Part shown: positions 43,731 through 46,475 of the stretch, one piece after another
Position numbering within the stretch: the stretch's first letter is position 1
How the letters are laid out: each line of letters begins with the position of its first letter
Source of the DNA: Phycisphaerales bacterium
Lineage (GTDB): Bacteria; Planctomycetota; Phycisphaerae; Phycisphaerales; SM1A02
Direction: 5' to 3'
Assembly: GCA_022447205.1 (NCBI GenBank)
Contig: JAKVBQ010000010.1
Span: 1-64,000, forward strand
DNA: 64,000 bases
Position numbers and translations under genes: made by a program
The notes under the pieces: model-generated
Database searches by the model: none
What the model saw: the letters and a program-made list of their open reading frames with translations, nothing else
What the model was told of the DNA's origin: nothing

Positions 43731-44546
43731 TCAGTTGCCGACGATGGTGGGCAGGTCGAAGAGTTCCGAGGTCAGGTTCACGGGACCTTCCTCGGTGATC
43801 ATGATGTCCGCCTCGTAGTGGACGCTCAAGGAGCGGTCCGCGGTGTAGATCGGCCACTCCTTGCGATGTGTGGAGATGTCCGAGCTGCTCACGCTCAGCA
43901 TCGGTTCAACGGCGACGAGCAGTCCCGGCTTGAAGGGCGTGAAGGCATCCGGCCATTCTCCCGGGTGCCTGGGCATCACGTTCGAGATGAAGGGTGGTCC
44001 GTGAAGCTCACGGCCGTATCCGTGCCCACCGAGGCCACGGATCAGCTTGAATCCACGTTCCTTCTCGACGTAGTCGTGGACAGCACGAGCCCAGTCCAGC
44101 AGGGGACGTCCCGGCTGCATCGCATCGATGCCGATCCTCAAGGAGTTCCTGCCGGCATCCATCAGGTCGAGAGCGACCTGATCCGCGCCACCGATCGCGT
44201 ACGTCCAGGCGGCATCCCCGATCCAGCCATCAAGCAGTGAACCGATGTCGATGGAGACGATGTCGCCATCCTTGATCGGTTCGGTCGTCATGTCATGCGT
44301 TCCGTGGACGACGCAGTCGTTCACGGAGAGACAGGCATGGGAGGGGAATGCAGGATGAGGCCTCGATCTGTAGCCGATGAAGGCGCTCCTGGCACCAAGA
44401 TCCGCGAGGCAGTCCGCGACGAAGGTGTCGATCTCCGCGAGCGTCTGTCCGGCTGCGAGCCACTCGACCAGTCGCTGGTGGGTCTTGACGACGCATTCAG
44501 CCGCCCTGGTCGCTCCGCTGATGTCCTTGGGGGAAGCCAATAGCAT
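43731..44546 (-). CDS. map: Methionine aminopeptidase, type I
   Basis: 271 residues from the ATG at 44546. It removes the initiator methionine from new proteins. The five metal ligands are visible: Asp in S-I-D-I-G-S, Asp in I-G-D-A-A-W-T-Y, His in G-H-G-Y-G-R-E-L-H, Glu in A-V-E-P-M-L and Glu in the final I-T-E-E-G-P segment. The conserved H in V-V-H-G is also present. First gene of the minus-strand run map-serA-peptidase, directly after a strong terminator. Confidence 0.94.
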   Translation of the reverse strand: MLLASPKDISGATRAAECVVKTHQRLVEWLAAGQTLAEIDTFVADCLADLGARSAFIGYRSRPHPAFPSHACLSVNDCVVHGTHDMTTEPIKDGDIVSIDIGSLLDGWIGDAAWTYAIGGADQVALDLMDAGRNSLRIGIDAMQPGRPLLDWARAVHDYVEKERGFKLIRGLGGHGYGRELHGPPFISNVMPRHPGEWPDAFTPFKPGLLVAVEPMLSVSSSDISTHRKEWPIYTADRSLSVHYEADIMITEEGPVNLTSELFDLPTIVGN

Positions 44547-44581
44547 CCCGGCATGGTACCGGCATCCCGCTCGGTGCACCG

Positions 44582-44615
44582 AAAACCGGGCGGCATCGTG
44601 GATGCCGCCCGGTTT
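44582..44615 (-). terminator. Strong intrinsic terminator after the 14-residue-repeat gene
   Basis: A 15-bp perfect stem, 44583-44597 with 44601-44615, closed by a three-base loop. On the minus strand the stem runs into TTTTC. It separates the repeat-protein gene from map. Confidence 0.9.
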
Positions 44616-44643
44616 CGCTCGTCTCTCGTCGTCTTGAACGCGC

Positions 44644-45012
44644 TCAGGCGACGTTCGTCTTGTTCATCTTGTCACCGAAGCCGTAGGCGCCGGTGTAGAA
44701 GCTGTTCGTGCCACCCTGGGGGGTGTCTTCGCTCGTGAAACCGTTGGGGGTCGAACCGAAGAAGGGGTTGTTCCAACCAGCGAAGGGACCCTCGAAGCCG
44801 TTGCTCCAACCGGTGAACGGGGTGTTGAAGCCGTTGTAGGTGTTGTTCCAACCGGTGAACGGGGTGTTGAAGCCGTTGTAGGTGTTGTTCCAACCGGTGA
44901 ACGGGGTGTTGAAGCCGTTGCAGTTGTTGTTCCAACCGGTGAACGGGGTGTTGAAGCCGTTGTAGTTGTTGTTCCAGCCGGTGAAGGGGCAGGTGTTCGT
45001 CGTCATGAACAT
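44644..45012 (-). CDS. Small protein made of 14-residue Pro-Phe-Thr-Gly-Trp-Asn-Asn repeats
   Basis: 122 residues. After eight residues come four near-identical units P-F-T-G-W-N-N-x-x-N-G-F-N-T, a fifth shortened unit (P-F-T-G-W-S-N-G-F-E-G) and a sixth diverged unit (P-F-A-G-W-N-N-P-F-F-G). The C-terminal 40 residues are Gly/Ser/Thr-rich and end in a charged K-M-N-K-T-N-V-A. Composition is dominated by Asn, Gly, Phe, Thr and Trp, with almost no charge in the repeats; there is no signal peptide. GGAG sits six bases before the ATG and a very strong terminator follows, so it looks like a genuine, possibly well-expressed single gene. I know of no family; function unknown. Confidence 0.8.
   Translation of the reverse strand: MFMTTNTCPFTGWNNNYNGFNTPFTGWNNNCNGFNTPFTGWNNTYNGFNTPFTGWNNTYNGFNTPFTGWSNGFEGPFAGWNNPFFGSTPNGFTSEDTPQGGTNSFYTGAYGFGDKMNKTNVA
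44806..45000 (-). repeat. Tandem 42-bp repeats inside the 14-residue-repeat gene
   Basis: Units begin at 44806, 44848, 44890, 44932 and 44974, an exact 42-base period equal to 14 codons. Copies share most of their bases, including silent positions, which points to recent duplication or gene conversion. Confidence 0.9.
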
Positions 45013-45221
45013 GGAAATCTCCAGGGTGTTAGGAAAGGGACTCTGGCCGACTGCCGCGAGTGGAGTCGAGGATCCAGATCAATGCGGTCGCCATTCCCGG
45101 CACCGCCTGCGCACACCGGATCGGCCATCCCAAGGTCCGACTTTCGTCAACGTGCTGGAAAAGGTGAGAACTTCCCGAGATTCCGTGGATCGCCGGCATG
45201 GCCCCCCAGGGAATCGGCTTC

Positions 45222-46475
45222 CTAGCCCCCCAGGGGGGTCAGGTCGTGGATCTGACCGGCGATCATGATCAGCCTCGGGCCCGGCATGGCGAACTCCCAG
45301 GCCAAGGCGCGCTCGTCGGTGCTGTCCAGGACCACGAGATCCGCCCGTTTTCCGATCTCGATCGAGCCGATCTCGTCCTGGAGTCCGAGGACGCACGCAG
45401 CATTCCAGGTCGCGGCCGTGATCGCTTCCGAGGGCGTCAGTCGGCACCGATTCACCGCAAGGTGAATCGCGAACGGCATCGAAGGCGTGGGCGCAGAGCC
45501 GGGATTGAAGTTGCTCGCGATGGCGACGGCACCACCGAGGTCGACGAACGCCCTGCCCGACGCGTACCCCTCTCCCAGGTGGTAGCCGCTTGCGGGAAGA
45601 AGCACGCCCATGGTGTCCGAATGCGCCAGTGCACGGAGGTCGTCGGGGGTCGTGGCCTCCAGGTGATCGACGCTCACTGCACCCGACTCGATCGCGAGCC
45701 GCGTCGCACCGAGGCTGTTGAACTGATCGGCGTGGACACGAATCGGGCAGCCAAGCGCCTGCGCTTCCTCGAAGAGTCGGCGACACTGGTCGAGCGACCA
45801 TGCCCCATCCTCGCAGTAGGCGTCACAGGCGATGCCGGGGAATGCCTGTGCCACCGCCGGCAGCGTCTCGTTGATCGTCTGCTCGATGAAATCCGGGTTG
45901 TCCGGGTCGATCGCGTGTGCGCCCAGGAACGTCGGGATCACGATGGGTTCGATCAGCTGCTTCGCGGAGCGGATCGCCTCGAGCATCTTCAGCTCGGCTT
46001 CGGTCGAAAGACCGTAGCCGCTCTTCACCTCGATCGTGGTGGAGCCCAGGCGGGTCATCTGTTCGATCCTGTGCAGCAGGTTCGAGGTGAGCTCCTCGAC
46101 GCTCGCGGAACGAACCGAACGCACCGTGGACATGATGCCACCGCCTGCGGCCAGGATCTCGAGGTAGCTTGCTCCCCTGAGTTTCTCGTCGAATTCATCG
46201 AAGCGACAGCCTGCCCAGCAGGCATGGGTGTGGCAGTCGACCAGCCCGGGCATGACCACCCGTCCCTCGACATCGATGCGCACCTCGTCCGATCCGGCTT
46301 CACCTCCCGGAGGCGTACCTTCGTCCATGCCGGTGATTCGTCCGCTCTCGATCGAGACCCACCCACGCTCGATCACGCCAAGGTGTTCCATCTCGTCCCC
46401 GCGACGGGGTGTTCGAGCTCCATTGCCCTGTGCGAGGGTCACCAGGCGTGCATTTTCAAGGATCGTCGTGCTCAT
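45222..46475 (-). CDS. hutI: Imidazolonepropionase
   Basis: 417 residues, amidohydrolase superfamily. It opens the imidazolone ring in histidine breakdown. Marks: the metal-binding V-D-C-H-T-H-A-C-W-A-G near residue 80, the substrate motif E-V-K-S-G-Y-G-L near residue 150, V-H-A-D-Q-F near residue 245, V-D-H-L-E-A near 270, and N-F-N-P-G-S near residue 322, the family hallmark. No hutH, hutU or hutG gene is nearby, so the pathway is scattered or this gene works alone. The stop lies within a C/G-rich palindromic stretch. Confidence 0.95.
   Translation of the reverse strand: MSTTILENARLVTLAQGNGARTPRRGDEMEHLGVIERGWVSIESGRITGMDEGTPPGGEAGSDEVRIDVEGRVVMPGLVDCHTHACWAGCRFDEFDEKLRGASYLEILAAGGGIMSTVRSVRSASVEELTSNLLHRIEQMTRLGSTTIEVKSGYGLSTEAELKMLEAIRSAKQLIEPIVIPTFLGAHAIDPDNPDFIEQTINETLPAVAQAFPGIACDAYCEDGAWSLDQCRRLFEEAQALGCPIRVHADQFNSLGATRLAIESGAVSVDHLEATTPDDLRALAHSDTMGVLLPASGYHLGEGYASGRAFVDLGGAVAIASNFNPGSAPTPSMPFAIHLAVNRCRLTPSEAITAATWNAACVLGLQDEIGSIEIGKRADLVVLDSTDERALAWEFAMPGPRLIMIAGQIHDLTPLGG

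Follow-up and report, generated by a model that had tools for sequence, protein, structure and literature searches.

A probably disordered, aromatic-rich repeat protein at the hutI-map locus of one Phycisphaerales family, with a sigma-28-type promoter

Short, uncharged repeats of the Asn/Gly type are found in curli CsgA and other repeat amyloids, and the small repeat protein described here resembles them in this respect, although its aromatic content is far higher and neither its unit nor its length is conserved. Other curli-type features were not found: the protein has no hydrophobic N-terminus (Sec signal), and no csg gene adjoins it, its neighbors being hutI and map. Trp-rich low-complexity proteins are reported to be scarce throughout the domains of life (PMC11132505), and a literature search returned nothing relevant on this protein type in planctomycetes. 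Through the present locus such a protein appears to join the flagellar regulon in uncultured marine planctomycetes, a link that gives an orphan protein a testable condition, time and partner machine.

The window (the whole 64,000-nt stretch of DNA analyzed) comes from genome G000 of genus g1. The repeat gene is the sole gene between the housekeeping genes hutI and map in the window, and all three lie on the minus strand. The features are as follows, by window position:

43731–44579, minus strand: map (methionine aminopeptidase-like, function from sequence), conserved right neighbor
44582–44616, minus strand: terminator-like hairpin, GAAACCGGGCGGCATC[CAC]GATGCCGCCCGGTTTT, fold z = −5.9
44644–45012, minus strand: repeat protein ORF, 122 aa of mainly Asn, Gly, Phe, Trp and Thr (MFMTTNTCPFTGWNN...MNKTNVA), with orthologues at the matching locus in seven genera
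44800–44989, minus strand: 42-bp tandem array, 4.5 copies of PFTGWNN[N/T][Y/C]NGFNT, then two degenerate units
45013–45119, minus strand: 5' untranslated region, about 105 nt, not significantly folded in this copy
45019–45022, minus strand: Shine-Dalgarno GGAG, 6 nt from the ATG
45120–45144, minus strand: sigma-28-type promoter AAAGTC-N12-GGCCGAT (−35 hexamer 45139–45144, −10 element 45120–45126)
45222–46475, minus strand: hutI (imidazolonepropionase-like, function from sequence), conserved left neighbor

The GTG at 44579 given as the map start probably lies too far upstream; the ATG at 44546 (MLLASPKD) suits relatives better.

What a sequence-only reading of this DNA had observed is confirmed. 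Its ORF coordinates match exactly, on the minus strand, and its exact 42-base period was recovered by TRF as the strongest array in the window by far (period 42, 4.5 copies, 95% matches, score 338). The array had been called young on the grounds of conserved silent positions, and indeed the best four units are 0–3 nt apart, with silent positions mostly identical. The ribosome site it claimed is the GGAG listed above, and the absence of a signal peptide agrees with an N-terminus lacking any hydrophobic stretch and with only 3% Leu, Ile, Val and Met in the protein. The terminator stem, previously put at 15 bp, is a 16-bp hairpin 3' of the stop codon. Asn, Gly and the aromatics Phe, Trp and Tyr make up 60% of residues, and the regular aromatics described in an uncharged Asn/Gly/Thr background belong to a real protein, predicted to be unfolded. 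Copy number had been expected to vary between strains; it does vary, as does even the unit, but the variation was seen between species. The interpretation offered with these observations is partly supported, and it did not foresee the conserved locus, the sigma-28-type promoter, the structured 5'UTR or the conserved C-terminal residues reported below.

The claim that no known family has this unit also held, as the window protein gave no family match above cut-off in Pfam, NCBIfam or PDB, and an RNA family search of Rfam was empty. LbR_Ice_bind (PF21300) scored 14.2 bits, below its gathering cut-off of 30. Collagen (PF01391) did not match the window protein, whose unit has no triplet period, whereas 2 of 10 members did match it (best E 5e-7). 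When viral contigs, phages, plasmids and genome contigs were searched with single sequences, either no relative emerged or the matches, to VgrG or tail-fibre genes, were compositional only. A multi-core RiPP precursor was likewise rejected: no maturase gene adjoins, and there is no repeated leader/core boundary.

Of 400 genomes searched within the order, only G380 had a convincing relative, with 58% identity and a matching locus; the family was revealed by reading the hutI-map interval in relatives. This interval encodes Asn/Gly/aromatic-rich proteins in about 22 genomes, spread over seven genera of a single Phycisphaerales family: G000 (g1), G003 (g3), eight genomes of g33 (8/8 in that genus), three each of g61 and g28, two of g26 and four of g54. 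Where contigs end inside the array, only one end of the gene is visible. Named records with copies of the g33/g61 type are Phycisphaerales metagenome assemblies, and a profile search across the class detected members in this one family only. In about 43 other genomes the hutI-map gap is about 200 nt or less and empty; the other g1 species (G001) has a gap of 129 nt and no repeat gene, and within g54 the gene is present in some species and absent in others. The best explanation is an ancestral feature of this family that was lost repeatedly. The earlier reading had named missing homologous frames in related genomes, or frameshifts in their arrays, as evidence against it. Homologous frames were found, at the same locus in seven genera; the G285 copy is frameshifted.

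In G285 (L268:290-970) the frame changes just past a 15-bp array (NGFQN x6), by assembly error, decay or possibly phase variation. Many assemblies (L045, L055, L060, L070, and L072) are broken within the array, leaving the gene cut at contig ends. Normal annotation overlooks the gene, both on account of these breaks and because homology searches fail. Weak matches in the first 60 relatives proved to be chance frames across 21-nt tandem repeats; such 21-nt (heptad) arrays, often not obviously coding, occur in related Phycisphaerales (L005, L008, L011, L028, and L034). Two g13 species (L035 and L036) carry a different, non-repetitive short ORF between hutI and map, with shared MNAWxxxRSWH and (E/Y)YDW residues. 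In G032 the same gap contains an ORF of 1.6 kb whose start is lipoprotein/TAT-like (L095:1383-2997), so this junction tolerates unrelated genes.

Across members almost every lineage has its own repeat unit (GFQGWNNPTYTGFNTP, AYAGFNGYSNGWNTP, YFGGFTNGWNTP, NNNWFNGFNGW, NNWNNGLNTG, and WNNGWNNTPNTS). Composition is steady, with 14–28% Asn, 13–27% Gly, 12–24% aromatics and few charged residues. At this Asn content, the residue after Trp is Asn 82 times out of 122. N-terminal Cys clusters such as NNCCGDxxSCxGPCPADY and CNNCPGFDSSDCCGG are shared within groups of genera, and the G026 member has 43 Cys. In each of the 20 C-termini that can be read, the last residue is Ala and the one before it Ala, Val or Ser (TNVA, RNVA, TEAA, TNAA, RSVA, RNAA, and RSAA). 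The proposed comparison of synonymous and non-synonymous change gave Ks well above Ka at the N- and C-termini in g33 (Ka 0.01–0.09, Ks 0.16–0.78), a pattern indicating that purifying selection acts on the protein termini. Structure prediction from a shallow alignment of 10 rows returned a mean pLDDT of 45 and a pTM of 0.14, and the protein is probably unstructured, i.e., intrinsically disordered. The lack of a predicted fold together with the biased composition places it in the intrinsically disordered low-complexity class, and it illustrates clearly how a disordered protein of bacteria can keep its composition without keeping its sequence.

The repeat DNA could instead be a selfish or neutral array, open in one frame by chance; the array is young, related genomes hold tandem repeats with other units, and the G285 copy is frameshifted. 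This account is almost certainly wrong: locus, promoter, terminator and composition are kept, in one frame only, and the selection detected across relatives, together with this conservation, contradicts a neutral repeat. The terminator is a case in point, as a hairpin of 13–17 bp follows the stop codon in 15 of 17 copies including the window's, with its sequence changed between copies. The window hairpin has no separate U-run and was therefore missed by a simple terminator scan.

Upstream, elements of the type AAGTC-N12-(G)YCGAT, corresponding to the −35 and −10 elements of sigma-28, align in all 19 copies with upstream sequence (19/19), 89–163 nt ahead of the start codon. They resemble the published FliA consensus, TAAAGTTT-n11-GCCGATAA (PMC2859248); the spacer exceeds that of E. 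coli by one base and equals that of motA in this Phycisphaerales family. Of 30 family genomes, nearly all without the repeat gene, most have the motif, at this spacing, immediately upstream of motA. It also precedes MSRIN-type flagellins, while MARIN-type flagellins are without it. When a scoring matrix was trained on motA and flagellin sites alone, the repeat-gene site ranked top within 200 nt in 19/19 copies, with individual P mostly 0.03 or less; Fisher's combined P over copies, 3e-38, is overstated because the species are related. The window site was second among the 128,000 positions scored in the window. Of the 12 genomes tested, 11 encode FliA (TIGR02479 above cut-off), G000 among them, and all members outside genus g28 come from motA-positive genomes. 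The motA of G000 itself has no clear copy of the motif. Genus g28 carries the gene with no motA match at E 1e-30; in G028 neither flagellin nor FliA gave a match above cut-off, and in this motA-less g28/G028 case the −10 element is degenerate (GTCGAG). Together, the sigma-28-type promoter, the conservation of locus and C-terminal residues, and the structured 5'UTR place the gene in the flagellar regulon, an assignment that is well supported at the sequence level. The matrix offers a means to list the remaining members of this regulon. Elsewhere in G000 a near-perfect sigma-28-type promoter (AACTGAAGTCGCGCCCGAAACCGGCCGATAA; L144, G000:C3, about 27452) lies 28 nt before an unclassified 210-aa ORF, which adjoins an lpxC-fabZ-like gene.

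Leaders of g33 and g61 copies (110–140 nt) contain a 5' hairpin and a second stem with GGA in its loop. In eight sequences 97% of cells are paired and 8 of 18 pairs are changed on both sides, against at most 2 such pairs in a slid control of the alignment. These leaders look like CsrA control. The window 5'UTR folds no better than shuffles, and the GGA-loop hairpin was not seen there. Leaders of MSRIN-type flagellins (about 200 nt, L116-L121) also contain hairpins with GGA in the loop (GCGGA-GGA-TCCGC, for example), a feature that control by CsrA would predict. Titration of CsrA by flagellin mRNA, together with CsrA-FliW, is reported for Campylobacter (PMC4894983). The active part might then be the mRNA, whose 5'UTR hairpin and repeated UGGAAC motifs would titrate CsrA. 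The covarying GGA-loop hairpin in two genera fits such titration, as does the presence of csrA in 14/14 genomes tested (one beside flagellin), and GGA lies inside every Trp-Asn codon pair. GGA counts nevertheless equal those of synonymous shuffles, which lend no support to a CsrA sponge, and no significant structure appears in the window's 5'UTR; Ka/Ks well below 1 shows selection on the protein. We regard titration by the mRNA as highly improbable.

We propose, with about even confidence, that the gene encodes an intrinsically disordered aromatic-sticker protein of the late flagellar regulon that self-associates and is possibly exported through the flagellar apparatus. The gene would act as a self-contained cassette between hutI and map, comprising sigma-28-type promoter, 5'UTR, ORF and terminator. 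RNA polymerase with FliA would transcribe it alongside motA and one flagellin class, so that the protein would be made late in flagellar assembly. An aromatic sticker every 4–8 residues, usually Trp then Asn, among Asn/Gly/Thr spacers in a nearly uncharged chain, would give the protein many points of contact with itself or with a single partner. It could then exit via the flagellar type III apparatus and coat the filament or pole as a sticky layer. No export signal is recognizable in the protein; the absence of a Sec signal, the flagellar promoter and the very many Cys in some species would make flagellar export the most likely route. From these features we infer the function of the protein, including FliA dependence in vivo, self-association, export and biological role; adhesion or condensate formation, suggested earlier, we likewise infer. 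Swimming does not require the gene, which many motile relatives are without. The results suggest that swimming marine planctomycetes have a component, not described before, of their swimming machinery or of the swimming-stage cell. A fuller version, tentative and, taken as a whole, rather unlikely, is a lineage-specific flagellar accessory protein: a disordered Trp/Phe/Asn repeat polymer, exported by the flagellar apparatus as an adhesive or protective coat of the swimming cell, with fast turnover of the unit and a fixed composition, promoter and C-terminus.

The same disorder and sticker-spacer pattern, and the same lack of a signal peptide, would suit a cytosolic condensate or polar scaffold in swimming cells, in which the aromatic repeats would phase-separate or dock one partner many times, with the [AV]A tail as a ClpXP-like degron removing the protein at settling. 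The tail resembles the ssrA degron, and if the conserved AA/VA ending acts as one of ClpXP type, a cytosolic protein would be favored. That reading of the tail draws on resemblance, however, and Cys-rich members such as that of G026 would be odd in the cytosol; we consider the scaffold possible but somewhat doubtful. A further question is whether FliA itself reads the promoter. Another alternative sigma factor sharing FliA elements would make the link to the flagellum indirect, e.g., through a general motile-to-sessile switch, and could accommodate FliA in genomes without a motA match, retention of the gene in flagellin-less G028, and the extra spacer base relative to E. coli. Yet one matrix fits motA and flagellin, the classical sigma-28 targets, with equal spacer length, and such a factor seems improbable.

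Among known structures, the best PDB score for the window protein was to the passenger of the trimeric autotransporter adhesin BpaC (PDB 7o23, E 0.0024), through 14-residue G-x-N-S/T repeats. The match is compositional only, and the matched BpaC repeats are without aromatics; at 122 aa the window protein shows no signal, head, YadA-type membrane anchor or Pfam match of a trimeric autotransporter. The sigma-28 (FliA) class 3 genes motA and fliC share its promoter elements, spacing and presumed expression timing, whereas the repeat gene lies outside any flagellar cluster, is absent from many motile relatives, and encodes a disordered protein without a known flagellar homologue. Prion-like or aromatic sticker-spacer proteins (FG-nucleoporins, CsgF-like condensates) are similar in composition, aromatic spacing and predicted disorder, but the present proteins are Trp-rich, share no sequence homology with them, and consist of the repeat region as a whole short protein instead of a domain. 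The family is undescribed, of a known general kind, the disordered low-complexity proteins, and in a new setting.
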